Source: Salipaludibacillus neizhouensis
GTDB lineage: Bacteria; Bacillota; Bacilli; Bacillales; Salisediminibacteriaceae
Length of the DNA: 64,000 nt
Reading direction: 5' to 3'
Assembly: GCF_002886185.1 (NCBI RefSeq)
Contig: NZ_KZ614146.1
Location: 3,073,924-3,137,923, forward strand
Made by a program: the position numbers and the translations under genes. How positions within the stretch are numbered: position 1 is the first letter of the stretch; every line of letters starts with the position of its first letter. Below, piece after piece: positions 8,337-50,724 of this stretch. The notes under the pieces were generated by a model. The model was given only the letters and a program-made list of their open reading frames with translations, had not been told where the DNA came from and did not search any database.

Positions 8337-9221
8337 CTATCGACCAATTTGGATACCAGTCAGATTCTCATAATACTTAGCAATGGCAGAATGATCTTTA
8401 TCACCATGGCCGTTGTGATGCAAGTTTTGTAAAATCTCTTGGACCCCTGCAGTCATAGGTACAAGTGCACCTACAGTATGAGCGCAATCCAAAGCATTGT
8501 TTAAGTCTTTGATGTGCAGGTCAATTTTAAAACCTGGTTCATCATTACCGGAAATCATCATTGGTGCCTTGGCATTCATCACAGTCGAACCTGCCAATCC
8601 TCCTTTGATAGCCTCAAAAACCAACTGTGGATCGACATCTGCTTTCTGAGCCATTGTCAATGCTTCAGATAAAGCTTGGATATTACATGCCACAATGATC
8701 TGATTTGCTAACTTCGTTGTATTCCCTGCACCAATTTCTCCGCAGCGAACGACAGATGCGCCCATTGTCTCTAACAACGCTTTATAGTTATCAAATACTT
8801 CCTGCTTTCCACCCACCATAAAACTAAGGGAACCATCGATTGCTTTTGGCTCTCCCCCTGAAACAGGAGCATCCAGCATCTCTACGCCTTTTTTAGCCAG
8901 TTCAGCTGCAATCTCTTTGCTTGCCACAGGATTAATTGAACTCATATCAATAAACACCTGTCCAGCTTTCATGTGATTTACAACACCGTCTTCTCCAAGC
9001 ATAACCGACTTCACATGAGGTGAGTTTGGCAACATTGTCATTACAAGATCACAAGTAGAACCAATTTCTGTATTTGTTCCTGCTTGGGCGCCTAATTCTA
9101 CTAGTTCCTCCACTGAAGCTCTATTGAAATCATTAACCACTAAATCATTGTAACCCCCGCTTAGTATATTCTTTGCCATAGGTTTACCCATTATTCCTAA
9201 ACCAATTAATCCTATTTTCAT
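8337..9221 (-). CDS. garR: 2-hydroxy-3-oxopropionate (tartronate semialdehyde) reductase
   Basis: The 294-residue protein starts at ATG 9221 behind GGGAGG; a longer frame to 9248 has no site. The N-terminal GLIGLGIMGKPMAKNI is the Rossmann NAD(P) motif of beta-hydroxyacid dehydrogenases; DAPVSGGEPKAIDGSLSFMVGG around residues 115-135 is the substrate loop, and GAGNTTKLANQ around 165 holds the catalytic Lys. Length and motifs match GarR/GlxR, which reduces tartronate semialdehyde to D-glycerate; 3-hydroxyisobutyrate dehydrogenase is the main alternative. It is last in a minus-strand series GHL6-like, AraC, garR. The kinase that would use its product is a fossil just downstream. Confidence 0.85.
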   Translation of the reverse strand: MKIGLIGLGIMGKPMAKNILSGGYNDLVVNDFNRASVEELVELGAQAGTNTEIGSTCDLVMTMLPNSPHVKSVMLGEDGVVNHMKAGQVFIDMSSINPVASKEIAAELAKKGVEMLDAPVSGGEPKAIDGSLSFMVGGKQEVFDNYKALLETMGASVVRCGEIGAGNTTKLANQIIVACNIQALSEALTMAQKADVDPQLVFEAIKGGLAGSTVMNAKAPMMISGNDEPGFKIDLHIKDLNNALDCAHTVGALVPMTAGVQEILQNLHHNGHGDKDHSAIAKYYENLTGIQIGR

Positions 9222-9270
9222 CTGAAATACCTCCCTAGTAAGTATCATTCTATTTTTGTTTCATTGTAAA

Positions 9271-10494
9271 TTACACGATAACAGTCTTCTTTTTTCTGTA
9301 TTCACTTGGTGTTTCACCAGTACTTATCCTAAAAATGCTAGTGAAGTAGCTTCGTGACCCGAAACCCAAGTCCAAGCTTATTTCTTCAATATTGGTATTA
9401 GTTGTTGTCAACAGATACTTTGCTTTTTCCAGTCGTTCATTTTGTATATAATCGGTAATGGAGCATCCCATTTCTTGATTGAATTTCCTAGATAAATGGT
9501 GTTCACTGTAACCAACTTTCTTCGCCAGAAAACCCAATGCAAGCTTTTCTTCTAAATTAAGGTTGATATATTCACAACATTCTCGAATCTGGCTCGAACA
9601 AGAAGCAACCCTTTTTGACTCCCGAACACGATGTACATAATCCAACAAAATTTCATCACTTAAGGCATTAACCTCACTCATCGATGAACATTTATTCAGA
9701 AGCCGCCTATAGTCGGCGCATAATGAGAAAGCTAACTTTCTTGACATACCGCCTTCCGCAGCTGCACGTGACACTAATGTAAGTAAGATATGGATCTTCT
9801 GTTTATAAAAACCAACACTTTTTTTATCACCGTCAAAAATCCCACTCATAAGGGGGGTGGCCCGGTTTACTACTTTTATAACATCCAAGTCCCCATTGCG
9901 CACTCTGTCTAAAAGCTCATGTTCAATATTCCAGTAGCCACTCTCCCCCTCAAACTGATCAATCATTACTTTGAAAGTACTTTTCTTCTTTTTACTTATA
10001 GAACTTAAAGATGAAACGTGATCAACAGTAATAGTCTTACCCGTTAAGCAGTAATGGAGCATTAGCGCAAATTGCATAATGCTGGATGATGTAAGCATCG
10101 GTAATTTCTTTAGAGAGGCAAGCATAATTTCCTCTGTATCCGCTGTCAGTTCGATCGCATCGATAATATCGCTGTAACTCTTAGGGTCATTATACCCGCT
10201 AAAAAACGGTCCTTTCACGTAAATGGCATTAATACCAACAGAGGAAGGTTCAAAGGCAACAATCCATGAGAGCATTGTCGAACTGGTAAAAACAATCGGC
10301 AGTGTGCTTTTGCTCATGTATTCTTCAATTGCTGCACGCCGCCCATTTGCAAAGAAAAGACTATTGAACAAAGATTCATTCGGGCAATCACTCTCAATAA
10401 CATTGAATCGGAAATCATATTTCCAGTTCCATATTTCATAACAGCTACCAGTAAGTTGTCGAAAGGCATCCAATATCTCATTTTTTCCAAGCAT
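9271..10494 (-). CDS. AraC-family transcriptional regulator
   Basis: A 407-residue protein starts at ATG 10494 behind CTGGAGGAAGG. The last 100 residues are a double helix-turn-helix of AraC type: LGFLAKKVGYSEHHLSRKFN and IEEISLDLGFGSRSYFTSIF, ending GETPSEYRKKK. The N-terminal 280 residues are a sensing region without a recognised sugar cupin. It shares blocks (SRAAAEGG followed by AFSL) with the AraC protein at 39020-40261, so the two are paralogues. It lies between the GHL6-like gene (gap about 90 nt) and garR (gap 49 nt), probably regulating that set. Confidence 0.85.
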   Translation of the reverse strand: MLGKNEILDAFRQLTGSCYEIWNWKYDFRFNVIESDCPNESLFNSLFFANGRRAAIEEYMSKSTLPIVFTSSTMLSWIVAFEPSSVGINAIYVKGPFFSGYNDPKSYSDIIDAIELTADTEEIMLASLKKLPMLTSSSIMQFALMLHYCLTGKTITVDHVSSLSSISKKKKSTFKVMIDQFEGESGYWNIEHELLDRVRNGDLDVIKVVNRATPLMSGIFDGDKKSVGFYKQKIHILLTLVSRAAAEGGMSRKLAFSLCADYRRLLNKCSSMSEVNALSDEILLDYVHRVRESKRVASCSSQIRECCEYINLNLEEKLALGFLAKKVGYSEHHLSRKFNQEMGCSITDYIQNERLEKAKYLLTTTNTNIEEISLDLGFGSRSYFTSIFRISTGETPSEYRKKKTVIV

Positions 10495-10586
10495 ATTACC
10501 TTCCTCCAGTCAATGTCATAAGATGTGTACAAGGCTCCCTTCATTTTTACGTTATTCATGATTATTGCACCTATGTTTTATATGAA

Positions 10587-12572
10587 TTATGAAAGAACTA
10601 GAGCTTCATAGTCTTTCAGCACATCCAAATTAACATTTAAATATCCATTTTCAAATCGATAGTCAACTTTACCGCCCCGTAAAGTTTCAATATGTGCACT
10701 TTCTTTCACGTCTTTCAGACGCAGAGAGATGTTGTGTATCGGAACCGGACTAAAGTTACTATTTCCGAAACATCCAGAGTTGTTAACAAACTGTATGATT
10801 TGTTTTTCATTATTTTTAACCATATTAATTTCTACCATTGGCGTTAGGTCCGGAGCAATCTCCTCTATTCCACATAGTGAGAAAAGAATATCCTGCATGA
10901 TGTTCAGCGTATTTTGGTGGCCTTCCTCACGATAGAAGGTTCCGACTTTCCAAGGAATGTAGACACCACGTCCCTTATGATAATTCGACACGAGAATTCC
11001 CGGATCTTGGGTAACCTCATTATAGTAGCAAATCTCGGGCGGACCGAATGGGTGTTCTGGAATTAACTGTAAATATTTTTTTACGTTTTCTTTGGGTTCA
11101 ACCATTACGAGATTGGTGCCCGGTGCAATCAATGGTGTTTTAATGCATCGTGGGAACAGGTCTTTCTCCGCCTCCGGGATTTCAAATATCGAAGACATCA
11201 GGTCATTCTGAATTTCTTTGACATGTTCAATCCCAAGACAGTTCAGCGCCATACCGTTACGAGCTTCAAATTGATTATCATAGAGTCCTGTTTCTCCTGT
11301 TGCAATGATAGTTCCTCCATTTGCTGCAAAATCATCAAGCAACTTGGCCTGTTGGTCTGATATGAATTTCATATCCCCAAGAACCACAAACTCTTTGCCA
11401 TCAAGCTGGCCTAAGTCATTCAGTTCCGTAAGGCGTATCTCGTCGAAAGGAATATGGCTTTCTGTAAGTGCCCGAATCCATCCAAATACTTCAGCATCAG
11501 CCTGAAACAATGATGCATTCCTTACGACAACACCCTTCGCCATCGAAACAAGATTATTATAAAGTTTTTCGTGTTTTTTGTGGAATTGAAACACTTTTTT
11601 GGTGCCTTCAAAGCCTGAAGTGTCTTTATGATTATCAAGTCTGCCCATGATATACATACTTAGACTGCCAGCATTCGCCAAGTTCTGCCACTGCCGAAGT
11701 TCCATTAAAGCGGGCGATACTGAAACATGACGGTATCGGAAGCCCATGAAATCAACACTGGCATTGTCAGTAGGTCGGGCACGCTCCGGTCCACTAATTA
11801 CCCTGGAATTTGACGAAGAACTGTACTGCCATTTAGCCCTTCCTTTATCAGTATTTGACTCACCTCGTATATAATCCAATCCATTTATAGCAATATCTGG
11901 ATTTATATCTTTCACCAAACGTCTTAGACGCTCCGTATGGTCCTTCTCGCAATCTTTTTTGAAAATCATGTATTTTTTGTACACAGGATTACGGGGATCA
12001 TCCTTTTCTGGAAGTTCCAATCCGTATTGCTCTTTAAATTTGTGCTGGCAGTTCTCACAATGGCAAGGTCCATGATAGGTATAATTGTAATCCACTACAA
12101 GAAATCCACTCATATTGCAAAACAAGCCGTCAAAGGAATGCGTTGTGAGCACTTCCTGGAGAATATCGAACATATATTTCTGCTGATAGTCGCCGTTCGG
12201 ACAAGTATGCACAAAACCGTTATAGTTGACAATTTCTCCATCTTTCGTTCGATAAGCCCAATCTGGATTCTGTTCATAGACTGAATAAAGAATCTTGGAA
12301 AAATCAGTTCTTGCGATTACCCGAATTCCCTGCTCATGACATTCATCTATAATCTTGTCCATGCTATCGCCATGCAGATATTCGCTATTAGGCTGAAATG
12401 GCAGCTTCGAATCGTAGCTGGCGATAATGCCTGCCGCATTAAGTAATACCACAGTTGCGCCAAATTCTTTTAAGTCCTTCGCATATCTAACAGCATCAAT
12501 ATCTTCCGTATCAATTTCTCTAAAATTTGTCTGGATCATCCGCCAAGGATATCCGCTCCACCAATTATCCAT
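10587..12572 (-). CDS. GHL6-like uncharacterised glycosidase, complete
   Basis: The 661-residue protein starts at ATG 12572 (MDNWWSGYPWRMIQTN) behind CAGGAGG. A frame extending to 12728 is the fossil of another gene, not part of this protein. The N-terminal 350 residues look like a TIM barrel (NPDWAYRTKDGEIVNYNG, DGLFCNMSG, CHCENC). The middle has a glutamine-amidotransferase-like fold segment as in GH42 trimerisation domains (LDDFAANGGTIIATGETGLY), and the end is beta-rich. It resembles hypothetical glycosyl hydrolase 6; activity and substrate are unknown. There is no signal peptide. A partial paralogue is at 1-1160 and a fossil at 47588-48384. Twice in this window the gene is preceded by a 2-hydroxyacid dehydrogenase sequence and lies close to glycerate-forming or glycerate-using genes. 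Confidence 0.82.
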   Translation of the reverse strand: MDNWWSGYPWRMIQTNFREIDTEDIDAVRYAKDLKEFGATVVLLNAAGIIASYDSKLPFQPNSEYLHGDSMDKIIDECHEQGIRVIARTDFSKILYSVYEQNPDWAYRTKDGEIVNYNGFVHTCPNGDYQQKYMFDILQEVLTTHSFDGLFCNMSGFLVVDYNYTYHGPCHCENCQHKFKEQYGLELPEKDDPRNPVYKKYMIFKKDCEKDHTERLRRLVKDINPDIAINGLDYIRGESNTDKGRAKWQYSSSSNSRVISGPERARPTDNASVDFMGFRYRHVSVSPALMELRQWQNLANAGSLSMYIMGRLDNHKDTSGFEGTKKVFQFHKKHEKLYNNLVSMAKGVVVRNASLFQADAEVFGWIRALTESHIPFDEIRLTELNDLGQLDGKEFVVLGDMKFISDQQAKLLDDFAANGGTIIATGETGLYDNQFEARNGMALNCLGIEHVKEIQNDLMSSIFEIPEAEKDLFPRCIKTPLIAPGTNLVMVEPKENVKKYLQLIPEHPFGPPEICYYNEVTQDPGILVSNYHKGRGVYIPWKVGTFYREEGHQNTLNIMQDILFSLCGIEEIAPDLTPMVEINMVKNNEKQIIQFVNNSGCFGNSNFSPVPIHNISLRLKDVKESAHIETLRGGKVDYRFENGYLNVNLDVLKDYEALVLS

Positions 12573-12589
12573 CTTTAGTCCTCCTGATT

Positions 12590-12731
12590 CATTTCCTATA
12601 GTCTTGACTCTTCCCTTTATATTAGTCGATTGACGAAACCACTTTATCTGTGAACGGCTTTGATATTCTGATGAATACATTTCAGTTCCGATTTCGTCCC
12701 CGTCTGGCAATCGTGGCATATACTCCACATT
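12590..12731 (-). pseudogene. Fossil of a D-2-hydroxyacid dehydrogenase C-terminus
   Basis: Read on the minus strand, this stretch gives PRLPDGDEIG, then WFRQSTNIKGRVK. That parallels the last 45 residues of the intact dehydrogenase at 48428-49426 (PSLPDREERA to TQSGVYTKGKVKS). The DNA aligns too: GGCTTTGATATTCTGA here against GGCTTCGATATTCTGA there, and GATTGACGAAACC against GGTTGATGAAACC. It sits directly before the GHL6-like start, the same order as at the other locus. Confidence 0.75.
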
Positions 12732-12774
12732 GATAGACTAATATATTCTTGGGATGTACTCTATTATAAAATCA

Positions 12775-12788
12775 TGCATGCGCTTTCA
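12775..12788 (-). promoter_or_regulatory. cre-like site (CcpA) upstream of the GHL6-like gene
   Basis: The minus strand reads TGAAAGCGCATGCA, one mismatch from TGWAARCGYTWNCW. It lies about 200 bases before the GHL6-like start. Otherwise 12732-13080 is AT-rich, without a gene. Confidence 0.5.
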
Positions 12789-13081
12789 CAATAAAAATAA
12801 TGATAACATAGTAAAAATACTGCTAACTTCTTGAATATTAACAATATTTTTATTTTATCGTCATTTTTTTAACAAGATAATTTTTCCCAAACAACTGATT
12901 TATAGGTTGCGACGCTTTTTTTACTTCATTCCCAAACATATTGTCTCAACCTTAGGTGATGTATTTGTGTTTATTTGTATAAAAAAGCCGAATAAAGTGG
13001 ATATCACTCTTTTTATACCCTGTTATTGGTTAGACTCACTTTTTATAATCGACAATTTTCATAAATGAATTTTAAAAATAG

Positions 13082-13123
13082 GTTGTTCAAAAATGCCATT
13101 ATAGATTGACATTTTTGAACAAC
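13082..13123 (-). terminator. Terminator after the GPH symporter
   Basis: A 14-bp perfect stem (GTTGTTCAAAAATG) with a 14-nt loop is followed on the minus strand by CCTATTTTTAAA, 30 bases past the symporter stop. Confidence 0.75.
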
Positions 13124-13152
13124 GATAAAAATTATAATATGAAATTCAACTA

Positions 13153-14676
13153 TTATTTTGTAAGTGCAGTTGGCTCGTCGTCAATTATATCAGCTTGTCT
13201 CCGTCTTTCAAGTTCCTCTTGAATTTCTTCCATACGATCTTTATCTAAGTCATAAAATTTCATTGCAATTAACGATGCAATATACGCTACTACCATTACT
13301 CCAATACTGAGAAGCATCGTCATCCAAAAAATCTTGTCTGAATATGGAGTATCTATATCTGGAAACGCACTTTTAAAACCAATAAATGCAAGCAACAACC
13401 CTACAAAAGTTTGTTGTAATGATGAAACCACTTTGTCTATAAGACCATAGAGAGCAGATATTACACCTGCACCATAAGTATTCGTTTGATACGTATTGTA
13501 ATCGATAACATCTGTTAACATCGGACTTACAAGACCAGAAGATACATAGCGAAAACAATTTTTAGCTATGAATAAAATGAAAAAACTGACTGTCATAAAG
13601 TTCATATTATCTATACGAATTTGTGTTGGGTCACCTAACCATAATAGGAAGAACATTAAGACGTAAGTAATTAAAGCTGCCCATGTTGCAAACACATACG
13701 CCCTCTTTGACCCAATTCTCATTGCAAAACTAATCCCTAAGATAAGAACTATAATATTAGGAATCATTGAAACTCCTTGTGTAAGACCCAACGTTGAATA
13801 GTCACCTATAATTATACCAAATAGCATTACAGCTACAATGGAATTACCAGCAATTTGCATACCCAATTTATCCGTAACCATAGCAACGGAAAACGCTTGT
13901 AATGGTCTGTTCCGTTTCAGTATAGGCCACAAGTCTTTGCTCTTAATCTTTACTGTATTCTTCCCAATACCAAAATTCTCAAGACGGTCCTTCGACCAAA
14001 TCCCTATAATTTGTGCTACCATAGCAATCGCACCTACTATTAGAGTGAAGATTAGCATCTCGTGAAATAGCTCTACATCACTATACGTGTATTTTCTTGT
14101 TAAAAAGACCGAAAGATATATGGTACCGGCTGTATAAAAAAGCATCGTATATATCATACCGAGTCCACCAAAAATCGGACGTTGCCGAGGATCATTTGTA
14201 AGAACATTATTACCAATATTACCGGCCACACCATTTATAGTATAACCAATGATAAATACTATATATAATAAAATAAAGTAAATCATTCTAAAGCCCTCAG
14301 GTACTAGATGGGTTGTAAAAAACATAACGGAAGTTGACGTGGCCATGGTTAAGTAACCAATCAACGCAGTTGGCCTAACCTTTCCAAATTTCCCTTTTGT
14401 TTTATCAACAATCAAACCAACAATTGGATCTGTAATACCATCAAAAATCCGAGTACCAGTAATAATAAATGAAGCAATAACAGTACCAAGACCTACGGGA
14501 CCAGCTGCGTAGTATGAAACTATTGCCATCATAAACGAAAATGCGTTATGCCCCATCGAATACATTGGGTAGAGAGCTAATTGCCACCATGTTGCACGTC
14601 TGAACTTTTTGTTTCTTTCCATTTCCGCCATTTTCCGTTGTTCTCTTTTTATTTTTCTTTCTTCTTTCATACTCAT
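13153..14676 (-). CDS. GPH-family (MelB-like) sugar:cation symporter 1
   Basis: The 507-residue membrane protein starts at ATG 14676 behind GAGGGGG; six more upstream codons lack a site. A charged N-terminal tail is followed by about 12 membrane helices. Typical family features are RIFDGITDPIVGLIVDKTKGKFGK near residue 75 (the loop 2-3 motif of MFS/GPH carriers) and a cytoplasmic C-tail ending in a Lys/Glu-rich helix. The family imports oligosaccharides or glycosides with Na+ or H+. The closest paralogue is at 22505-23983, and a fossil of a near-identical start is at 29216-29419. The upstream region carries a duplicated leader with cre sites, so carbon catabolite control is likely. The substrate cannot be read from sequence. 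Confidence 0.85.
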   Translation of the reverse strand: MSMKEERKIKREQRKMAEMERNKKFRRATWWQLALYPMYSMGHNAFSFMMAIVSYYAAGPVGLGTVIASFIITGTRIFDGITDPIVGLIVDKTKGKFGKVRPTALIGYLTMATSTSVMFFTTHLVPEGFRMIYFILLYIVFIIGYTINGVAGNIGNNVLTNDPRQRPIFGGLGMIYTMLFYTAGTIYLSVFLTRKYTYSDVELFHEMLIFTLIVGAIAMVAQIIGIWSKDRLENFGIGKNTVKIKSKDLWPILKRNRPLQAFSVAMVTDKLGMQIAGNSIVAVMLFGIIIGDYSTLGLTQGVSMIPNIIVLILGISFAMRIGSKRAYVFATWAALITYVLMFFLLWLGDPTQIRIDNMNFMTVSFFILFIAKNCFRYVSSGLVSPMLTDVIDYNTYQTNTYGAGVISALYGLIDKVVSSLQQTFVGLLLAFIGFKSAFPDIDTPYSDKIFWMTMLLSIGVMVVAYIASLIAMKFYDLDKDRMEEIQEELERRRQADIIDDEPTALTK

Positions 14677-14982
14677 TATATCTTGCCCCCTCACTTATTA
14701 ACCCATAACATTTCCTAATTCAATGTAATGTTAAAAAGACTTCTTTACTCATTGAACTTTGAAGTGATATTTCGTATAGCTGTTGTTTTCACTATTAAAA
14801 TTAAAATTGAAAGATATAACTACATCCCCCACATATAGTTCCTGTCTTTTTCGAATAAAACCTGTATTTTTTTCCTATTAGTTAAGAAAAATGACTAAAG
14901 ACAGATCAAATCTAAATCAACACCCAAACTATCGAGTTACTATATCCCATATCATCACTAATCATTAGAATAAGTCAAAACG

Positions 14983-14996
14983 TGATAACGTTTACA
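14983..14996 (-). promoter_or_regulatory. cre site, copy A
   Basis: The minus strand reads TGTAAACGTTATCA, a full match to the CcpA operator consensus TGWAARCGYTWNCW. It lies about 305 bases upstream of symporter 1. Confidence 0.65.
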
Positions 14997-15253
14997 AATA
15001 ATCCAATGCTTATTTATCCTTTTTTCATCTTTCTTACTCATAAACATTTTCTAATTCCATGTAAAAGGTTAAGAAATAAGAAACTTCATTTTAAAATTAA
15101 AATAGATATAACTAGATCCCCATCTTTATCGAATAAAAGCTGTATTTTTTATCATAGTAGTTAAGAAAAATGACTAATTCAGACTAAATTCAAATCAACA
15201 CCACAACTATCGAGTACCTTTATCCCATATCATCTCATGAACGTCGCACAAAA

Positions 15254-15267
15254 TGATAACGTTTGCA
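15254..15267 (-). promoter_or_regulatory. cre site, copy B
   Basis: The minus strand reads TGCAAACGTTATCA, one mismatch from the cre consensus, at the matching position of the second leader copy. Confidence 0.55.
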
Positions 15268-15549
15268 AAATACCATTATCTACCTCTACTGTGTTATTAC
15301 TTACTATATTGGTATAGCCACCTCTCTCCGCATAAATTATTGAACCTCCCATCATTACCTTTTAGATTCCATGATATGATACTTATTATACTAGCATTGA
15401 ATATTCAGACAATTAATATCTTGCTTATATAGTTAAAAAAATGTCCACTTCGTAAAACAAAACATTTTTTTTATTATTTTGACAGTTTTTTTACCAACAT
15501 TACTAGAGAAGTCTATCAATAACACCCGGAAATGGATGTTTTATCATTA

Positions 15550-15587
15550 ATAAAGGTCAGCATCCAAAACTAGATACTGACCTTTAT
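15550..15587 (-). terminator. Terminator downstream of mgsA
   Basis: Arms of 15 bases (ATAAAGGTCAGCATC against GATACTGACCTTTAT, one G-T pair) enclose an 8-nt loop. The gap to mgsA (15588-15868) holds a 61-codon frame abutting the mgsA stop, without a ribosome site, which I do not call. Confidence 0.65.
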
Positions 15588-15868
15588 CATAAAGCCAATA
15601 TTATTAAATTTAGTACCCAAGATTGATTAGCCTAAGTACTCTATCCATCATTTTCTTATTAATTCTCCCATGAGTAAAATCTCTATATCTTCATGCCAAT
15701 AATATGGAATCGTTCGACTGTATGCGGGTGTAAAGGTTTTAATTGGCTAATTTGAATGATAATCAATCTGTTACTATTGATATTGCATGATTTATTCCTC
15801 TTCCCGAAAGAGGTTTTAAATCTACCTATTTCGCCGTTTAGCTTAGTTACGTTTTTTATTACATTCAT

Positions 15869-16333
15869 TTATCCATAGAAATGAGACTTGATTGACTCAA
15901 AAAATAAACTTTTTTTCAAATATTCTTTTTCTTTGTCTTCATGGATAATATTACGCCATTCTAAATCTCCTCGTTCCAATGATAGAATTAGAATCTCCGC
16001 TGACCCCATATTTGTAGCTAGTGGAATGTCGTACACGTCACATAATCTCATCAAAGCGGTAATATCCGGTTCATGTGGTTGGGCTGTTAACGGATCTCTG
16101 AAAAATATGACCATATCCATTTCATTATTAGCTACCATGGCTCCTATTTCTTGGTCACCACCAAGAGGACCTGATCGAAAACAATGAATATCTAATCCTG
16201 TCTTTTCATGAATCAATGCTCCCGTTGTACCAGTAGCAAACAGTGTGTGCTTTTCTAAGTACGATAAGTACGATCGTGTAAAATGAAGCAATCGATCTTT
16301 CTTCTTGTCGTGGGCAATTAAAGCAATTTTCAT
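15869..16333 (-). CDS. mgsA: Methylglyoxal synthase
   Basis: The 154-residue cytoplasmic enzyme converts dihydroxyacetone phosphate into methylglyoxal plus phosphate, a bypass used when sugar phosphates build up. ATG 16333 follows GGAAGGGG. Family signatures are clear: [10 protein letters not shown] at the N-terminus, ATGTTG near residue 35, [15 protein letters not shown] with the catalytic Asp near 70, [15 protein letters not shown] with the conserved His near 98, and [10 protein letters not shown] near 120. Length lies between E. coli MgsA (152) and slightly longer Bacillota forms. It is a single gene with its own terminator in a sugar-catabolism island, where rapid sugar influx would make a relief valve useful (inference). 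Confidence 0.93.
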
Positions 16334-16460
16334 AATTAATACCCCTTCCTATATAAAAAATTATTATCTTTCTTACACTTTATCAATAAACTTTAATTAG
16401 TTATGGTATTTTAGTAGTTATTTTAGTAGTTGAGTGTAGTTTATTTTTGGGGATGACAAC

Positions 16461-29215: not shown

Positions 29216-29419
29216 CTAGTTCAATAAAATTAAAAAAATGAGGCTATCCTTTGTTTTATCAACAAGCAAATCGATAATTGGATCTGTAATACCATCTAAA
29301 ATCCGAGTACCAGTATTAATAAATGAAGCAACAACAGTTCCAAGACCTACAGGACCAGCTGCAAAGTATGCTACTATTGCCACCATAAACGAAAATGCGT
29401 TATGAGCAACTCCATACAT
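29216..29419 (-). pseudogene. GPH symporter fossil, N-terminal piece
   Basis: About 60 residues (MYGVAHNAFSFMVAIVAYFA, then AGPVGLGTVVASFINTGTRI and LDGITDPIIDLLVDKTK) match residues 38-98 of symporter 1 almost one to one. The rest of the transporter is missing and there is no ribosome site. Confidence 0.88.
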
Positions 29420-35759: not shown

Positions 35760-35786
35760 TGCATTCCCCCCCAAAAAACATTTTCG

Positions 35787-42900: not shown

Positions 42901-42925
42901 ATATGGTAATTTCGTACTTTTTTTA
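42901..42925 (-). promoter_or_regulatory. Recurring 25-nt motif, copy 5 (GH2-2)
   Basis: The plus strand reads ATATGGTAATTTCGTAC, then a T-run and A, about 273 bases upstream of the GH2-2 start. The interval 42632-43073 otherwise holds no gene. Confidence 0.55.
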
Positions 42926-43073
42926 GTAATATAAAAGTACGATTCTAATCAATTTCAGCACAACTATCTACCATTGCTTACAAACCGTTGCAAATACTAA
43001 AAAGCATACTGTATCCATCTTCGGTTCCCCCGTTTAAAAAGATAGTCTTGTAACTAATAGGCAAGGAGATAGC

Positions 43074-43107
43074 AAAGATCAGTATCTAGTATTAGATACT
43101 GATCTTT
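43074..43107 (-). terminator. Terminator after cidB
   Basis: A 15-bp perfect stem AAAGATCAGTATCTA with a 4-nt loop, 14 bases past the cidB stop. Confidence 0.8.
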
Positions 43108-43120
43108 TATAATAATCACA

Positions 43121-43804
43121 TTAATTAAATATATTATATATAAGTGGAAGAACAATAGATGTAAGGATTGCAGCAGCACCCATTGCAACACTAGACACAG
43201 CTCCTTGTAATTTCCCTTCTACTACTGCTTGACTTGTACCAATACCGTGTGAAACGGTTCCCATCCCTAAGCCACGTGAGATTGGATCGTGAATCTTACA
43301 TAATGTTAAACACAGCGGTCCAAAGGCAGCCCCAAAAATTCCAGCAGTAATGACAAGTACAGCGGCTAATGAAGGGTCTCCGCCAATTAAAGTTACGACC
43401 TCAAGTGCAACTGGGATCGTAACTGCTTTAACAGCAGAAGTTGCCTGTATCATTTCAGAAAGATTGAGTAGCTTTGAGATATATACAGCGGAAGCTATAG
43501 TAGCAATGCTTCCTACCGTTAAACTTCCTAAAACCTGTACTGCGTTTTCCTTGATCACAACTCTGTTTTTGTACATAGGAACTGCAAGCGCAACTGTTCC
43601 TGGACCCAAAAAATAAGTTATCCAATCTTTTGCCGGTGCATATTGCTCATAATTAATATCTGCTATTATTAAAATGATAATGATTACGATTGTTGCTAAC
43701 AAAACTGGCGTAGTAAAAGGGTTAGAGACGTGTTTATATAATAACCTTGCGCCAAAATATATTAGTATCGTTATAATAATATTACTGAGAGTCAGACTGA
43801 ACAT
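43121..43804 (-). CDS. cidB: LrgB/CidB-family membrane protein
   Basis: The 227-residue protein starts at ATG 43804 after AAGGAG and has about 7 membrane helices. Signatures of the LrgB family: NPFTTPVLLATI, YFLGPGTVALAVPMYKN, and the C-terminal HGIGTSQAVVEGKLQGAVSSVAMG. Members act with an LrgA/CidA partner; in Bacillota they are tied to cell-death control and, for some, to pyruvate transport. Its start overlaps the preceding cidA by 23 nt, so the two are co-translated. A LysR regulator is divergent, as in the ywbHG/cidAB arrangement of Bacillus. Confidence 0.88.
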   Translation of the reverse strand: MFSLTLSNIIITILIYFGARLLYKHVSNPFTTPVLLATIVIIIILIIADINYEQYAPAKDWITYFLGPGTVALAVPMYKNRVVIKENAVQVLGSLTVGSIATIASAVYISKLLNLSEMIQATSAVKAVTIPVALEVVTLIGGDPSLAAVLVITAGIFGAAFGPLCLTLCKIHDPISRGLGMGTVSHGIGTSQAVVEGKLQGAVSSVAMGAAAILTSIVLPLIYNIFN

Positions 43805-44177
43805 GTTTTTGTTTCTCCTTAGAAGATAAATATTGTGTCATTCCTGAAGTTATAATTAAGCCAATAATTGTACTTCCAACAATCATAACAAGCAACTTCC
43901 ACCCACTAGTTTTTATTAGATCACCATAAGTCATTATACCTACAGCGTAAGGGATAAAGAATAATGCTAAATGTTTAATTAGATACTCTGCTGCCTTTTC
44001 AATATAGTTTAATTTTACAATCCCCAATGTTAAGCTTACGAATAATAGAATCATTCCAAGGACATTACCAGGTATAAACAGATTTGTGTACTTTACTATG
44101 AAATTAGAAGCAGAAAAAATGGCAATCAGGAAAAGGACTTGTAATAAAAAGATAACTGCATTTCTCAAGTATTTCAC
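43782..44177 (-). CDS. cidA: LrgA/CidA-family holin-like membrane protein
   Basis: The 131-residue protein has four membrane helices. Family marks: FLIAIFSASNFIVKYTNLFIPGNVLGMILLF with the conserved I-P-G-x-V-L-G-M, and LFFIPYAVGIMTYGDLI. It starts at ATG 44177, with AGGAGGGTG a few bases upstream. First gene of the cidAB pair, read away from the LysR gene. Overlap with cidB indicates a single operon. Confidence 0.9.
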   Translation of the reverse strand: MKYLRNAVIFLLQVLFLIAIFSASNFIVKYTNLFIPGNVLGMILLFVSLTLGIVKLNYIEKAAEYLIKHLALFFIPYAVGIMTYGDLIKTSGWKLLVMIVGSTIIGLIITSGMTQYLSSKEKQKHVQSDSQ

Positions 44178-44485
44178 CCTCCTTTTATTGATGATATTAA
44201 TGAAGATTAATAAATCATCATTGATAGATCTCGTTAATAGTGAACTTTTGTGAAATCTTTATAGCTACTCCAGCCTTTGTACTTTAATTCTTACTAATTC
44301 AACAGCTTTTTCGTTAAACACAACAAGTGATGAAAAATTTTTCTTTACTAGATATTTCTTATAAATATATTATATAATATAAACAATAATTCATATAATA
44401 CATATTTCTTATCTTAGTTATTCTTTTTGGTTATATCTATAATCGCAGTCTATCCTTACAACTATGTTATGAAAGGGAGTTTTTT

Positions 44486-45376
44486 ATGGATATCAGACAC
44501 TTAGCTTATTTTTCTGAAGTTGCCAAACATTTGAGTTTCACAAAAGCAGCAACTACTTTACATGTTTCTCAACCTTCTATCAGTAAAGCTATCAAGCAAA
44601 TTGAATCAGAACTTGGTGTCCCCTTGTTTTATCGTTCAAAACAATTGGAGTTAACGGATGCTGGAAAAGCAGTGTTAGTTAATGCTAAGCATGTACTAGA
44701 GGCTTTTCAGAACCTAACGACGGAACTAACGGATATTCTTGAATTAAAAAAGGGAGTGGTTAAGATTGGTATTCCACCAATAGTTGGACCAGCCTTTTTT
44801 TCTAAATTAATAAGTAAATACAAAGAAATGTACCCGTATATTGAAATTATCTTAACAGAAGTTGGATCAAAAAAAATAAAAGAAGGCATTAATGACGGTT
44901 CTTTAGATATAGGACTAATTTGTAATTTACCAGTCAACAATGATAAATTCTCAATAATGAAGGTTATTCATGATCCATTAATGCTTGTTGTTCATAAGCA
45001 AAATCCATTAGCAAATTATAAAGAAGTTGATCTATCCGATCTTAAAAACGAACATTTCATTTTATATCAAAAAGATTTTACCCTTCACGACCACATTATC
45101 GAGGAATGTGCCAGTAAAGGTTATTATCCTAAAATCGTATGTAACAGTTCACAAAAGGACTTTATGGTGGAGATGGTGGCAGCTAAACTAGGTATTGCTC
45201 TTTTACCTAGTAGAATTGCTGTTCCCATCCAGAATAGTAACATTGCTGCAGTTAATTTAATCGACTCAAATATTAGTTTAGAACTCGGTTTAATTTGGCG
45301 AAAAGATAAATACCTACCTTTTGCAGTCCGTGAATTAATTTCCATGTCAGAGGAGCTTTTCGAGGATTCAATTTGA
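44486..45376 (+). CDS. cidR: LysR-family regulator of cidAB (CidR-like)
   Basis: The 296-residue protein starts at ATG 44486 after GAAAGGGAG. The N-terminal winged helix-turn-helix is MDIRHLAYFSEVAKHLSFTK, AATTLHVSQPSISKAIKQIE. The effector domain begins around residue 90 (GVVKIGIPPIVGPAFFSKLI) and contains VAAKLGIALLPSRIAV. CidR-type regulators activate cidAB under overflow metabolism, responding to acetate or pyruvate; the role here is inferred from the divergent layout. The 308-nt shared interval contains ATATTTCTTATAAATAT (44352-44368), a possible LysR-type site. Confidence 0.87.
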   Translation: MDIRHLAYFSEVAKHLSFTKAATTLHVSQPSISKAIKQIESELGVPLFYRSKQLELTDAGKAVLVNAKHVLEAFQNLTTELTDILELKKGVVKIGIPPIVGPAFFSKLISKYKEMYPYIEIILTEVGSKKIKEGINDGSLDIGLICNLPVNNDKFSIMKVIHDPLMLVVHKQNPLANYKEVDLSDLKNEHFILYQKDFTLHDHIIEECASKGYYPKIVCNSSQKDFMVEMVAAKLGIALLPSRIAVPIQNSNIAAVNLIDSNISLELGLIWRKDKYLPFAVRELISMSEELFEDSI

Positions 45377-45464
45377 GGGGGGTATCCCCCAGACCCAATA
45401 TTCGGGTTCGTGTATCGAGGTTCACTAAGTTATCGACGTACCTATCGATCTATTTCTTGAACAT

Positions 45465-45490
45465 AGATTAGGTCTCATGAGACCTAATCT
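45465..45490. repeat. 26-nt perfect palindrome
   Basis: AGATTAGGTCTCA and its exact complement meet with no loop. It lies 90 bases past the cidR stop; an earlier GGGGGGTATCCCCC hairpin touches the cidR stop. It may be a transcription stop or a protein site. The rest of 45377-45924 shows no gene; a cre-like TGAAAGCGATTACA (minus, 45806-45819) has no gene downstream. Confidence 0.5.
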
Positions 45491-45675
45491 CTCGCATCTC
45501 TCCTTGGTTGGTTACGGAACCCTAGAAACCTCCGTTTTGTGGTCTTCCGATTTCGCTTTCTCATTCTTAACCATCAGCTTTAGTTCTTGTCAAGAATTTT
45601 TTAATGACCTTTAAATACCCTTTCCTTGTCGCGGACTTTTCGGCTCTTAGATGTTAAAAATGCTGGACACAAAAA

Positions 45676-45709
45676 GAAAAGTAAGAACAAATTCTTGTTC
45701 TTACTTTTC
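45676..45709. terminator. Bidirectional terminator between cidR and symporter 4
   Basis: A 15-bp perfect stem GAAAAGTAAGAACAA with a 4-nt loop, flanked by A- and T-rich tracts on each side. Confidence 0.8.
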
Positions 45710-45924
45710 ACAATTGAATATTATACTTATTAAACAGTTTTTACAAATCAGACTACTATGATCTTCAATATCTTGTCCATCAACTAAAATCACGATTCAG
45801 TAAAGTGTAATCGCTTTCAAATATCGAATGGGATTTACCGTTACACTGGCTTTCAAATCCTGTTAGTAAAATGAATGTCTTCCAGCAGGAATTCAATTTT
45901 CTTTTTCTGTGAAGAACCTACTGA

Positions 45925-47385
45925 TTAACCACTGATCTTTTTGCTAGCCTTTGCTGCCGCATCAGCAGCTTCTCGATACTTCCAATTGTTTTGCTGAACC
46001 TCAACCATCTTCTCTTTATCTAATGGATAAAACTTCAGCGCTATTAAGGATAAAATATACCCAATAATTGGTAAACCCATCCACAAGAACATCCCTATCC
46101 AAAAGACCCCTAATGTTGATGGATCTCCAGGCTGTGGCTGCACTGCGACATAACCAATTGATGCAATGGAGACGGCAACGATGGTTGCTCCAAAAGATGA
46201 GATCGTTTTATCTAAAAAAGCATAGACTGCAGACACTGTTCCTGGCATATAGGTGCCGGACTTTTCAAGCTCATAGTCTGCAACATCCGGTATCATAGCT
46301 TGTGTACAAGCTGCTGTTGCTATCATGCATGCATGGAACCCGGAAACAAGTATTACAAAAATAACTGTTGGAACAGCTGCTACACTGATTTGTGTCGGAT
46401 CGATGAGGACCATGAAAACAATTACAGCTACAGCGAAGCTCATAGAGATAGTCGTCCATTTAATTAGGGTTTTCTTTGTACCGTTTTTACCAGCCATATG
46501 GGTAGCATAGAACAGAACCAACAGAGTCGGTATTACATCGATCAGTTTGAAGATACCCATAAACTCATAATGTCCAATGATAATACCAAAAATTATAGTC
46601 AGAATTGCAGCCTGCCCTGCAGCTTGTTGTGCAAGTTTGTCACTGGATCCCGCAATGATTAAAACCTGTAACCCCCGGTTATGCCTTATTAAATGCCAGG
46701 CATCTTTATAATTGATACGTTTTCCACTGGCTTTTTTAGGGAAATTTTCTGGTTTATCTTTTTCACTGATTGCAATAAAAGCTAAAATTTCTAAAACAAC
46801 AGATACTACTACAATAGCAATAGTCAGTTCCTGCAAAGCCGCATTAGTAATGCCTCCATGTTTACTAAACAATATATTTGAGAGAAAAAAGCCTGCTGAA
46901 GCACCAAGAATTGTTGTATATGTCATTGCCCATCGATAAATCGTTGGACGTTGTCGGGGATCGTTTGTCAGAACTGTATTACCAGTGTTGGTTGCAATAC
47001 CACTCATCGTAGAACCAATAAAATAAACCATGTACATAATGATAAAAAATAACATCCCTTGACCGACACCCCATACAAATAAAGATATTACGGCTAAAAT
47101 TTGAATGGTAAAACCGGTCACCATAACAATTCGAATTTTCCCGTATTTGGTATCCAGTCGGTCAGTTAGTATGGCTATTATTGGATCAGTAATTCCATCA
47201 AAGATTCTGGAATAGGTCATGATCACACCTGCCATTGCTACTCCGAGTCCGTATCCTCCTACAGCAATGTAGCTAGTAAACATAATTAATACGTACATAA
47301 GATTGTTAATAGTCGTGTTTGCAGGCCAAAGCATAATCTGCCAAGTTTTTGCGCGATTGTATTGCATCGCTGTACTCTCGTTCAT
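45925..47385 (-). CDS. GPH-family sugar:cation symporter 4
   Basis: The 486-residue membrane protein starts at ATG 47385 after AGGGGG. About 12 helices with the loop motif SRIFDGITDPIIAILTDRLDTKYGKIR and the phrase TNDPRQRPTIYRW; NVLTNDPRQRPIFGG at the same place in symporter 1 shows they are distant paralogues. The C-tail ends DKEKMVEVQQNNWKYREAADA. It lies downstream of the GHL6 fossil in the 2-hydroxyacid dehydrogenase locus and may import that module's substrate (inference). Confidence 0.85.
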   Translation of the reverse strand: MNESTAMQYNRAKTWQIMLWPANTTINNLMYVLIMFTSYIAVGGYGLGVAMAGVIMTYSRIFDGITDPIIAILTDRLDTKYGKIRIVMVTGFTIQILAVISLFVWGVGQGMLFFIIMYMVYFIGSTMSGIATNTGNTVLTNDPRQRPTIYRWAMTYTTILGASAGFFLSNILFSKHGGITNAALQELTIAIVVVSVVLEILAFIAISEKDKPENFPKKASGKRINYKDAWHLIRHNRGLQVLIIAGSSDKLAQQAAGQAAILTIIFGIIIGHYEFMGIFKLIDVIPTLLVLFYATHMAGKNGTKKTLIKWTTISMSFAVAVIVFMVLIDPTQISVAAVPTVIFVILVSGFHACMIATAACTQAMIPDVADYELEKSGTYMPGTVSAVYAFLDKTISSFGATIVAVSIASIGYVAVQPQPGDPSTLGVFWIGMFLWMGLPIIGYILSLIALKFYPLDKEKMVEVQQNNWKYREAADAAAKASKKISG

Positions 47386-47752
47386 AGCAAATACCCCCTA
47401 TCATTTTATCTTTTAACATTTGATTTACTTTATTGTTCAAATGTTATTACTGATAATCCTTACACACGGTCATATCAACAAAGTAATTATTCCTTTAAGG
47501 TTCGGTATTTGGACAAGGGAAAAAGGACCTTCCCTCATAAAGTATTTTTCTATCATTTCATACGTAATTTTTAGATTTGGTACATGATAGAACGAGATCT
47601 TCATAGTCTTGAAGCACATCCAAATTAATATTCAGAAATCCCCTTTCATATTTATAATCAACTTTACGTCCCCTCAAGGTTTCAATATTTTCGCTTTCTG
47701 TCACACCTTCTAGAGAGCCCACCTTTCAATGTTCGTGCGCGTAGGTGCAAAA

Positions 47753-47780
47753 GGGCATAATCTAAAGATAGATTATGCCC
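47753..47780 (-). terminator. Terminator of the lipoprotein gene
   Basis: A 12-bp perfect stem GGGCATAATCTA with a 4-nt loop, followed on the minus strand by TTTT. Confidence 0.85.
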
Positions 47781-47797
47781 CTTGATTCACTCTGTAC

Positions 47798-48268
47798 TTA
47801 ATTTGGATTCGTTGTTAGTGTTATAACCACATCTTTTTTACCATCAAAGGTTTTATATTCAAATGCATAGAATCCGTCATCACCTTTTACCACTTCCCAG
47901 GAAGTGCTATCTCTATCATTTAGGTCAAGACTAATCGTACTCTCGTCCTCACTCATAGACCATGAACCATCAAACACAGTCTCTCTTTTTGCATATAAAA
48001 CCGTCCCAATAACTGTACCATCATCATAAAGGTCAAGCGTTGGTTCCATTAGACCGTACTCAGCTACTCCCTTACCTGTAAAAACTATTTCAGGTTCACC
48101 TTCTGGAACAACAATTTCTTTTTCTTCTGAAGAATTTGAATTTTCATTTGATTCGTTCGCACTTCCATTAGCACTTTCATTAGCACTTTCACCACCACAT
48201 GCTGCGAGTACTAAAACTAAACTTAAAACAACCATTAACACTCCAATACTTCTGCTAAACATTTTCAT
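47798..48268 (-). CDS. Small lipoprotein of unknown function
   Basis: The 156-residue protein starts at ATG 48268 (MKMFSRSIGVLMVVLSLVLV) behind GGGAGG; a frame extending 38 codons upstream is the GHL6 fossil. A lipoprotein signal peptide ends in the lipobox LAAC, followed by a Ser/Asn/Glu linker with ESAN and GSAN repeats (about 25-50). The mature part (EPEIVFTGKGVAEYGLMEPT, LDLYDDGTVIGTVLYAKRE, WSMSEDESTISLDLND) looks like a small beta-barrel or Ig-like domain. It would sit on the outer face of the membrane. It has its own ribosome site and terminator and lies inside a decayed glycosidase gene, so it arrived later. I do not recognise the family. Confidence 0.8.
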   Translation of the reverse strand: MKMFSRSIGVLMVVLSLVLVLAACGGESANESANGSANESNENSNSSEEKEIVVPEGEPEIVFTGKGVAEYGLMEPTLDLYDDGTVIGTVLYAKRETVFDGSWSMSEDESTISLDLNDRDSTSWEVVKGDDGFYAFEYKTFDGKKDVVITLTTNPN

Positions 48269-48427
48269 TGAAATACCTCCCATAAATAATATATTATTAG
48301 TTTTATTTGCAAAACATCCGGTATTATTGACCAACTGAATGATTTGTTTTACCTTTTTTCTACAGATATTAACTTCTACCAATGTTTCATCTTATCTTCT
48401 TTCTTTTCCTAATTTAGCAGTGGGTTA

Positions 48428-49426
48428 TCAGCTCTTGACTTTGCCTTTTGTGTAAACCCCACTTTGTGTAAGGCGGTTGATGAAACCGCTACCTTTTCGA
48501 TAGGCTTCGATATTCTGAAAAACATAATCCAGTGCACGCTCTTCCCTATCCGGCAGACTTGGCGTAATATGTGGTGTAATGAGAACATTCTCCAATTCCC
48601 AAAGCGGGTTTTCCTTAGGGAGCGGTTCTACTTCAAAGGTATCTAAGCCCGCACCAGCAATCTTTCCGTTCTGCAAAGCCTCAATCATCACCGGTTCATC
48701 AATGAGTTCCCCTCGACCCATGTTGACTACAAATGCTGACGGCTTCATCCAGTCAAATTCTTTCTCACCCAACATGTGCCAAGTATGATCGTTTAGTTCC
48801 GCGCACAAAACAACATAATCAGAAGCTTCCAGAAGTGACTGAAGGCTATCCTGACGGTCAGAGGAGTACACGACGTCGACATTCTCAGGTACCTCAGAAG
48901 ACCGCCTCCATCCAAGTACCTTCATGTCAAACGATTTTGCAAACCTTGCCACCTCACACCCTGTCTTTCCCAGACCAAGGATACCGATCGTCTTACCGTA
49001 CATACCGGTTTTTAAGGAGTACTCTCGTGTTGCAGCCCACCGTTTCTCTGCTTTTGCTTTCATAAGCAATGGGATATCATAGGTCAATCCAAGCATGAAC
49101 ATCAGTGCATGTTCTGCAAGAGCAGGGGCAGAACGCCCTGATGAACTTGTAAGTATAATCCCCCGCTCAAAAATTTCAGGTTTGGCGGATTTGTCCAAAC
49201 CTGCCCGACTGCAGTGGATCCAACGCAAATTAGGTCCAGTGAGGATTAACTCATCCACATCACTATTTAGAATTGCAACATCCGCTTTCTGGATGGCCTT
49301 GGCTATAATCTCTGTATCATACGGTGTACAAAACACCACCTCAGCAGGTTCAAGCGCCTTGCGAAGCTTTTCCTGATTTTCTGGTTTTAGAAAAGTAGTT
49401 ACAAGTGCAGAATGGATTTCTGGCAT
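48428..49426 (-). CDS. D-2-hydroxyacid dehydrogenase (glyoxylate/hydroxypyruvate reductase type)
   Basis: The 332-residue protein starts at ATG 49426 after AAGGAGG. NAD site GKTIGILGLGKTGCEVARFA near 145; catalytic Arg in VVNMGRGELIDE (about 235), Glu in DTFEVEPLP (about 265) and His in ITPHITPSLPD (about 290): the full D-isomer set. It may reduce glyoxylate or hydroxypyruvate, or oxidise a related hydroxyacid; substrate not proven. The upstream gene is an intact glycerate kinase; the downstream neighbour is the GHL6 fossil. A fossil of the same dehydrogenase precedes the intact GHL6-like gene at the other locus. Confidence 0.87.
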   Translation of the reverse strand: MPEIHSALVTTFLKPENQEKLRKALEPAEVVFCTPYDTEIIAKAIQKADVAILNSDVDELILTGPNLRWIHCSRAGLDKSAKPEIFERGIILTSSSGRSAPALAEHALMFMLGLTYDIPLLMKAKAEKRWAATREYSLKTGMYGKTIGILGLGKTGCEVARFAKSFDMKVLGWRRSSEVPENVDVVYSSDRQDSLQSLLEASDYVVLCAELNDHTWHMLGEKEFDWMKPSAFVVNMGRGELIDEPVMIEALQNGKIAGAGLDTFEVEPLPKENPLWELENVLITPHITPSLPDREERALDYVFQNIEAYRKGSGFINRLTQSGVYTKGKVKS

Positions 49427-49569
49427 AAAAAATTACCTCCTTATTATTTGACCTTATCATCACGTGAAACTTTTGGGCTTTGAACTGCACAGCAAGCTTA
49501 TTCACTGCAGTAAAACTAGTGGCTGGCAGAGAAAGATCCAAACGGATATTGTCAGCAGTTCTTTCATGT

Positions 49570-50724
49570 CTATAGAACTTTTTGTCGTGCTCGTTCTTCA
49601 CTAATCTCTTTCAGCAAACCAGCAATGTTTCTAGCCTCATTCGCTAAAAGCGTTTCTGCATTCTTCATACATTCTACTAATGTCATTGGACCAACAGTGA
49701 TGGAATGACAGCTCATGAAGTGGCCATACAAATCTTCATAACCTTTCCCAAGACTCCCAGATAGAAGAATGGTCTTGACCTCTGCTTCTTTTGCAAGCTT
49801 TGCTACAAAGGAAGGCACTTTTCCAAACAATGTCTGGTAATCACTTTGTCCTTCACCTGTTATTGCAAAATCAGCATCTTTCATCTTATTTTTTAAATTT
49901 GTCGCATCCGCTATGATTTTGGAACCAGATTCAATCTTTGCATTTAATAATAGAAATGCAAATCCAAGTCCACCAGCTGACCCTGCACCAGGGTTTTTTT
50001 GAAGATTAATGCCTAGATGATCTTCTATCAAACTTGCATATCGATACATTGCCTGGTCATACTCTTCCAAATCCTCTTCCCTCACACCTTTTTGTGGTCC
50101 GAATATATATGTTGCACCATTTTTTCCACATAAAGGACTATCAACATCACTTGCAATGGTAAAACGACAATCATGAATAATTGGATCCAATGTTGTAAAA
50201 TTAACTTTTTCCACATTGTAAATCGATTCACCTAAAGGAGGAACCTCTTTATTATTTCCATCTAAGAATTGAACACCCAGTGCTTGAAGCATGCCTAGAC
50301 CTCCATCATTTGTGGAGCTTCCACCAAGGCAAATAATAAATTCACGGTATCCATCATTGGCTGCTTTAAGAATCACATCCCCCATACCATAAGTAGATGT
50401 ATTTAACGGATTCCGCTTATTAACTGGAACCATTGGCAACCCTGAAATAGCAGCAATTTCAGTAACAACTGTTTTCCCGTCTCCCAAGACACCATATTCC
50501 GTTGTCACATGTTCCATTAGCGGACCTGAAGAAGTAACTTGAAAACGCTTACCTTTTGTAGCATACACTAAAGTCTCAAGCGTCCCCTCACCCCCATCGG
50601 CCATCGGGGTCATTTCGACTTGAACATCTGGAATTTCATTTTTAAGCGCTTCTTGAATAATATTTCCAACCTGTAAAGCGGTCAAACTCCCTTTAAAAGA
50701 GTCAGGCGCAACGACTATTTTCAT
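49570..50724 (-). CDS. glxK: Glycerate kinase (GarK/GlxK family)
   Basis: The 384-residue kinase starts at ATG 50724 behind AGGTGGGAG. MKIVVAPDSFKGSLTALQVG, MADGGEGTLETL, CLGGSSTNDGGLGMLQALG, GAGSAGGLGFAF and FAITGEGQSDYQTLFGKVP are the conserved blocks of the family, complete in length (about 380). It phosphorylates D-glycerate, most likely to 2-phosphoglycerate, feeding lower glycolysis. It is upstream of the 2-hydroxyacid dehydrogenase (gap 143 nt) on the same strand and downstream of the CdaR-type regulator, a common pairing. The gap holds a coding-like frame (ADNIRLDLSLPATSF) without a start that I cannot assign. Confidence 0.92.
   Translation of the reverse strand: MKIVVAPDSFKGSLTALQVGNIIQEALKNEIPDVQVEMTPMADGGEGTLETLVYATKGKRFQVTSSGPLMEHVTTEYGVLGDGKTVVTEIAAISGLPMVPVNKRNPLNTSTYGMGDVILKAANDGYREFIICLGGSSTNDGGLGMLQALGVQFLDGNNKEVPPLGESIYNVEKVNFTTLDPIIHDCRFTIASDVDSPLCGKNGATYIFGPQKGVREEDLEEYDQAMYRYASLIEDHLGINLQKNPGAGSAGGLGFAFLLLNAKIESGSKIIADATNLKNKMKDADFAITGEGQSDYQTLFGKVPSFVAKLAKEAEVKTILLSGSLGKGYEDLYGHFMSCHSITVGPMTLVECMKNAETLLANEARNIAGLLKEISEERARQKVL

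Follow-up and report, generated by a model that had tools for sequence, protein, structure and literature searches.

The closest described relatives of the enzyme treated here are the alpha-L-fucosidases of glycoside hydrolase (GH) family 151. According to two reports, Pfam family GHL6 includes the tested alpha-L-fucosidase Mfuc3 (PMC4723247), which now stands in GH151 together with ALfuk2 (ALfuk2/iso2, Paenibacillus thiaminolyticus, 6TVK), whose nucleophile is D154 (PMC10154630). We investigated a GHL6 gene, GHL6_A, in a 64,000-nucleotide stretch of the Salipaludibacillus neizhouensis genome (contig NZ_KZ614146.1, positions 3,073,924 to 3,137,923; "the window" below), where it lies close to garR_A, which encodes a 2-hydroxy-3-oxopropionate (tartronate semialdehyde, TSA) reductase. 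A TSA reductase, a glycerate kinase, and a CdaR-type regulator are likewise found in the glucarate/galactarate (gar) and glyoxylate (gcl-glxR-glxK) routes, and two TSA-forming enzymes are known, glyoxylate carboligase (Gcl) and the glucarate-pathway aldolase GarL. In the S. neizhouensis genome, the GHL6 module occupies at least four loci, here called A to D, with three full-length GHL6 genes on the same contig (A, C, and D) and an additional fossil in B. GHL6_A shares the Pfam domain and a similar overall fold with the GH151 enzymes, and we suggest that its clade has a rebuilt active site and may feed D-glycerate metabolism through TSA.

GHL6_A (window positions 10587–12572, minus strand) is an intact open reading frame (ORF) of 661 amino acids that scored 99.7 bits against Pfam GHL6 (PF14871; curated cut-off 35), with weak matches to Pfam GH42 and GH42M as well. 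Its structure model reached a predicted local distance difference test score (pLDDT) of 77.5 and a predicted template modeling score (pTM) of 0.60. The best PDB match of this model by fold was ALfuk2 6tvk (Foldseek E 2e-28, 16% identity), and the same entry was the best match of the sequence profile (E 3.7e-12). GH42 beta-galactosidases and the GH164 beta-mannosidase were the next PDB matches by both fold and profile, at 11–15% identity. The acid/base motif of GH42 is Asn-Glu, which is absent at the end of strand 4 in the GHL6 proteins studied here.

The position of D154, which stands at the end of strand 4, was located in the GHL6 alignment rows via the 6tvk alignments, and two types of protein were distinguished. 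Residue counts and the tree cover 35 Asn-type rows (36 with L034, a second entry of the L021 locus that was excluded from the residue counts and from the 24-locus count below) and 20 Asp-type rows, the very distant L102 and L103 having been omitted from the latter. In the Asn type, which includes GHL6_A, the GH151 nucleophile is replaced by Asn in 35/35 rows (N153 in GHL6_A), and R88, D90, D233, R281, D317, and E513 are equally invariant. The Asp-type rows instead carry Asp at the N153 position (20), Tyr at R88 (20), and Ser or Thr at D90 (17 and 3, respectively). The Arg-x-Asp formed by R88 and D90 on the third barrel strand is therefore new relative to the Asp type, GH151 having Y-x-S/T there. 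E513 lies within a GPPE (28/36) or APPE (6/36) loop of the Asn-type rows, whereas 18/22 Asp-type rows have SHQH or SHKH at this place; in GH151, His503 is contributed by a loop of the neighboring monomer, and the aligned place is taken by GPPE/APPE in 34/36 Asn-type rows. E238, part of an "ES" motif, is kept in 34/35 Asn-type rows; its pairing with E235, the acid/base Glu in GH151, was made by eye, and MAFFT does not align the two residues. Three cysteines are common to 55/55 rows of both types, and by analogy with GH42 they would be zinc ligands.

In the tree, the two types were split by a branch with 100/100 support, although the program warned of long branches among the deep rows. The Asp-type row L091 matched 6tvk at near full length (998.6 bits), and the Asp-type rows, of which this one was tested singly, were therefore taken as GH151 or close to it; identity on the GH151 side to GHL6_A is 14–19%. 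Even at 22% overall identity, polar residues of the barrel do not vary. A GH151 mechanism is made less likely in the Asn-type clade by the missing nucleophile. Judged by these alignments, the clade is a relative of the GH151 alpha-L-fucosidases whose active site has been rebuilt, and is not ordinary GH151. The initial annotation had treated GHL6 as an uncharacterized glycosidase family. As a description of the whole family this has to be abandoned, since Mfuc3 and ALfuk2 are already tested alpha-L-fucosidases.

The gene neighborhoods separate the two types as well. A search of genome contigs gave 15 named loci from Shouchella, Litchfieldia, Bacillus, Clostridium, Lachnospiraceae, and unplaced Bacillota, in which a GarR-type gene (12/15) or a 2-hydroxyacid dehydrogenase (HADH) gene (9/15) lay on the same strand as GHL6. 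From a set of 28 fetched loci, four (L087, L100, L101, and L104) were left uncounted, having no GHL6 ORF of >400 amino acids with the profile used. Within 6 kb of Asn-type genes, we found a GarR-type gene in 20/24 loci, HADH in 10/24, an MFS_2 transporter in 12/24, and glycerate kinase in 2/24; the corresponding values for the Asp-type (GH151-like) loci, here including L102 and L103, were 0/22, 1/22, 0/22, and 0/22. The most constant partner of Asn-type GHL6 is thus GarR or a close relative, often accompanied by HADH and by an MFS_2 or ATP-binding cassette (ABC) importer, and in a few bacilli by glycerate kinase. Only three NAD_binding_11 genes are present in the S. neizhouensis genome, two of them garR_A and garR_C, so a chance neighborhood of garR and GHL6 is unlikely.

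Intact HADH–GHL6 pairs with 17–39 bp spacing were found in Bacillus (L022), a Clostridiales metagenome-assembled genome (MAG; L023), and Lachnospiraceae (L031 and L033), and in a distant genome (L098, 34% identity) a GarR-type gene stands together with both HADH and GHL6. By this gene order, the dehydrogenase–GHL6 linkage is ancestral, as the initial annotation had proposed; its further proposal that the linkage is functional looks right from the difference between the two types (20/24 against 0/22 for GarR). In five Paenibacillus-like loci, the only genes between the first GHL6 gene and the reductase gene are, by similarity to labeled proteins, those for an ABC importer, a second GHL6, and a regulator. 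Several other neighborhoods had unusual compositions. A single locus of Shouchella tritolerans (L019:4478-21981) has one GHL6 gene of the A type and one of the D type, along with two dehydrogenases and a fragment of a third GHL6, and resembles A, B, and D combined. Three divergent Asn-type GHL6 genes, two of them adjacent, accompany one ABC importer and one GarR-type gene in L036:8025-18663. In a Lachnospiraceae locus (L030:8966-12019), a sulfatase-family ORF of 278 amino acids immediately precedes the Asn-type GHL6. Substrate clues from this locus (sulfatase and esterase neighbors, with allantoin-type genes farther off) and from L024 (TctA/TctB) formed no consistent pattern.

The identity of the reductases bears on the product of the GHL6 reaction. 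The garR_A gene (8337–9248, minus strand) is intact, and its product exceeded two NCBIfam equivalog cut-offs (PRK11559, 440 bits with a cut-off of 397; TIGR01505, 384 bits with a cut-off of 341); seven of the ten partner reductases from outside the window also passed the NCBI TSA reductase cut-off. Neither Gcl nor GarL scored over its cut-off in any of the 20 genomes searched that carry an Asn-type GHL6 (0/20 each), although both models are strict and several of the genomes are MAGs, so these absences are provisional. Glyoxylate carboligation and the GarL aldolase were accordingly set aside as the evident source of TSA. In this respect, and in the placement of GHL6 beside the reductase, the system differs from the gar and gcl routes.

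Given the linkage to GarR, the simplest reading is that GHL6 supplies a C3 acid for GarR to reduce. An MFS_2 or ABC importer would bring an acidic sugar compound into the cell, where a cytoplasmic GHL6 would cleave it and free a C3 oxo or hydroxy acid, either of the isomers TSA and hydroxypyruvate. Reduction by GarR and the dehydrogenase would then yield D-glycerate, which glycerate kinase would convert to phosphoglycerate. The importers and the CdaR- and AraC-type regulators fit a small acidic sugar compound. We tentatively favor this pathway, in which D-glycerate would be supplied via TSA from an acidic sugar compound that the Asn-type clade acts on after import, while putting its chances at somewhat under even; the substrate, the GHL6 reaction, and GHL6 as the origin of TSA are what we infer from the arrangement. 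A bolder version appears unlikely to us: the Asn-type GHL6 proteins would form a new enzyme family, a fucosidase-type barrel minus its nucleophile that turns an acidic sugar compound into TSA, possibly by a non-hydrolytic carbon–carbon or eliminative reaction. The initial annotation had guessed at a C2/C3 hydroxyacid product (glycerate, hydroxypyruvate, or glyoxylate). With the GarR linkage, the fitting importers and regulators, and the reductase scores, this guess, and its C3 product in particular, seems better supported than its own evidence allowed.

Several observations weigh against the proposed pathway. The active-site region of the GHL6_A model is poorly predicted, with residues 238–246, 250–285, 302–310, and 510–516 under 50 pLDDT. 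Three of the ten partner reductases (L036, L106, and L098) fell under the TSA reductase cut-off. Hydroxypyruvate as the HADH substrate is a guess; HADH_B, the intact dehydrogenase of locus B, reached no NCBIfam equivalog cut-off, that for hydroxypyruvate/glyoxylate reductase included, and the same held for five relatives. No GarR-type gene was nearby in 4/24 Asn-type loci (L023, on a 3.9-kb contig, L024, L030, and L099), and glycerate kinase was nearby in only the two loci counted above, and the S. neizhouensis genome has one more kinase on another contig. Nor are the 24 loci independent: five come from one genus (f50/g163), for which "Paenibacillus-like" is a guessed label, and the gene names around these operons rest on similarity to labeled proteins. 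The Gcl and GarL searches covered 20 of the 25 Asn-type genomes, those of L023, G550, G560, G724, and G1153 having been left out; weak GarL-type matches occurred in 7/20, and G1088 has a Gcl-like match of 610 bits with one stop (cut-off 711).

Two other readings of the Asn-type protein deserve attention, each of which we regard as improbable without dismissing it. The protein could be a plain glycosidase, with D90 or E238 as catalyst, that frees glycerate from its glycosides, for example glucosylglycerate or mannosylglycerate, while GarR and HADH merely interconvert glycerate isomers. The glycerate kinases in B, C, L021, and L022, the diacid regulators in B and L022, and the many invariant carboxylates retained in the barrel are consistent with this. 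D-glycerate, however, needs no TSA reductase, yet a GarR-type partner is far more frequent than a kinase (20/24 and 2/24); moreover, the glucosylglycerate hydrolases known so far are of another enzyme type than GHL6. Alternatively, GarR-family enzymes and HADH could first oxidize a uronide or aldonate, and GHL6 would break the activated product with no TSA involved. That both partners are hydroxyacid dehydrogenases, that three of the ten tested partners are not certain TSA reductases, and that the nucleophile is lost all suit such a route, but seven of the ten partners do score as TSA reductases and glycerate kinase is present in B, C, L021, and L022. It is very unlikely that the Asn-type proteins are catalytically dead GH151 relatives acting as sugar-binding sensors or scaffolds: the change from Asp to Asn in 35/35 rows would agree with loss of activity, but the barrel polar residues are invariant to 22% identity and the new R88, D90, and E513 are fixed in every row.

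The history of the module in S. neizhouensis was read from the fossils. In locus A, all on the minus strand, an intact AraC-type regulator gene (9271–10494; Pfam) lies between garR_A and GHL6_A, an MFS_2 (GPH-type) sugar transporter gene (13153–14694; PF13347) shows synteny with L021, and the glycerate kinase predicted as a fossil is indeed a C-terminal fragment of 217 residues (7292–7945; PF02595, profile positions 167–371 of 372). Just upstream of GHL6_A lies the relic of an HADH gene 3′ end (~12580–12720), which the initial annotation had also called a fossil and which held up when aligned at the DNA level. It scored 39, 40, and 35 against the HADH 3′ ends of B, L022, and L021, respectively, with shuffle maxima of 20–21 and 0/300 shuffles as high; the scores were 29 against L019 (0/300) and 26 against L023 (1/300). 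Control stretches upstream of GHL6 in L021, L019, and L020 scored no better than their shuffles, of which 8 to 300 out of 300 reached the same score, the lowest value, 8/300, coming from the L019 stretch against the L023 HADH.

Locus C lies 12.5–17.5 kb left of the window and is 94–96% identical to A in DNA. The segment common to both (window 7166–12585, minus strand; C1:3056412-3061386) spans 5.4 kb and is near-identical in three blocks of 95.5% (2095 bp), 93.6% (1431 bp), and 95.6% (779 bp). GHL6_C (C1:3059387-3061372, 12.5–14.5 kb left of the window) is 95% identical to GHL6_A in amino acids; the locus also holds a garR gene (99% amino acid identity to garR_A) and an intact glycerate kinase, GK_C, which scored 513 bits against a TIGR00045 cut-off of 168. 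Relative to C, locus A misses 642 bp of the N-terminal part of the kinase gene, while C misses ~1.1 kb of araC relative to A, the surviving remnant being 30 amino acids long and 97% identical. At the scar of this deletion (C1:3059252-3059297), a 46-bp araC stretch (window 9388–9433) is present in inverted orientation at 98% identity. The kinase fossil of A shares 95% identity with GK_C and 38% with GK_B of locus B; with the complementary deletions, this makes A and C, on these comparisons, the pair with reciprocal losses. The initial annotation had seen the module twice and had each of A and B keeping what the other lost, which is not borne out by the three full-length genes or by the pairing of the fossils, the kinase with C and the B remnant with Shouchella.

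An HADH relic also precedes GHL6 in C. Its score against HADH_B was 22 (shuffle maximum 16, 0/300), and 0–1/300 shuffles scored as high against the HADHs of L022, L021, and L019 but 120/300 against that of L023. The A and C relics gave a local score of 25 against each other. We dropped our first view, a duplication of A and C later than the dehydrogenase decay, because near-identity does not reach beyond the GHL6 5′ end and the relics are less alike than the block; the decay may have come before or after. The likeness of A and C may stem from a recent duplication, or from an older one homogenized by gene conversion.

Locus B, on the minus strand throughout, contains intact genes for HADH_B, a D-2-hydroxyacid dehydrogenase (48428–49426; PF02826/PF00389), and the glycerate kinase GK_B (49570–50724; TIGR00045, 440.6 bits with a cut-off of 168). 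Their intactness, like that of GHL6_A and garR_A, had been correctly predicted, all four being ORFs with the expected Pfam matches. A CdaR-type sugar-diacid regulator gene lies upstream of GK_B (50875–52029; PF05651 and PF13556), and an MFS_2 transporter gene (45925–47385; PF13347) shows synteny with L022. The predicted GHL6 fossil was recovered as two pieces corresponding to about residues 578–603 (48304–48382) and 619–661 (47585–47713). In BLASTN of locus against locus, the matches to GHL6_A had 80% identity across 121 bp (E 1e-26) and 78% across 81 bp (E 4e-13). The pieces are split by a 590-bp insert (47714–48303) with a lipoprotein-like ORF (47798–48280) that has no Pfam match. Locus B aligns collinearly with an operon that is intact in Bacillus sp. 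EB106 (L022), ordered CdaR-GK-HADH-GHL6-MFS_2-garR, at 82.5% DNA identity over 3.6 kb (CdaR-GK-HADH) and 81% over 1.4 kb (MFS_2). Glycolate/glyoxylate genes adjoin B at 54254–62828. They encode malate synthase G, malic enzyme, an FAA hydrolase, and, as judged by eye, subunits resembling glycolate oxidase; the intact L022 module likewise has relatives of the FAA hydrolase, malic enzyme, malate synthase, and glcD-like genes beside it. The B fossil is closest to Shouchella (83–86.5% DNA identity), with 78–80% to A and C and, against L022, 82% for the first piece and 73% for the second. From the collinearity with L022 and the proximity to Shouchella, B is a separate operon that evidently lost its GHL6, and not a sister copy of A. 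That one module was duplicated to give A and B, which then decayed reciprocally, is suggested by the shared HADH–GHL6 junction and the genuine fossils. It is hardly credible when the homologous genes of A and B have nearer relatives elsewhere: by kinase identity and by DNA blocks, the 5.4-kb likeness is between A and C, and the B fossil is nearer to Shouchella than to A.

GHL6_D (C1:3073056-3075158; 35% amino acid identity to GHL6_A) crosses the left edge of the window, in which its 5′ part occupies positions 1–1235 on the minus strand. Near it, in locus D (L008:17099-18601, minus strand, and L009), a 2-hydroxyacid dehydrogenase ORF of 500 amino acids has its start fused in frame to a C-terminal piece of GHL6_D, and a GarR-type fragment of 97 amino acids lies close to this ORF. 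Other remains were seen in the window: a broken SufB-like sequence at 6343–7213 (minus strand; SUFBD_core match for 6343–6798) and, beside it at 3514–6262, an IS21-type gene, a Mu-type transposase fragment, and an integrase fragment, which form mobile-element debris bordering the A/C segment. A 57-residue MFS_2 remnant at 29249–29419 (minus strand) is 79% identical to the locus A transporter.

A literature search by title and abstract opening found no publication on this module, which is weak evidence, as subscription journals are poorly covered. If the proposed pathway is right, bacilli and Lachnospiraceae would have an undescribed glycerate route that starts with a recognizable glycosidase fold whose catalytic machinery has been switched. 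Since GHL6 is paired so tightly with a familiar reductase, an NAD(P)H-coupled assay is available, and with it a direct search for the substrate. The clade also calls for caution with family-name labels, as its proteins are assigned by score to GHL6, a family in which the members tested are fucosidases, and yet are without the known catalytic residue. Were the bolder version true, the Asn-type GHL6 proteins would be a third biological source of TSA besides glyoxylate carboligase and the glucarate aldolase, common to bacilli and Lachnospiraceae.

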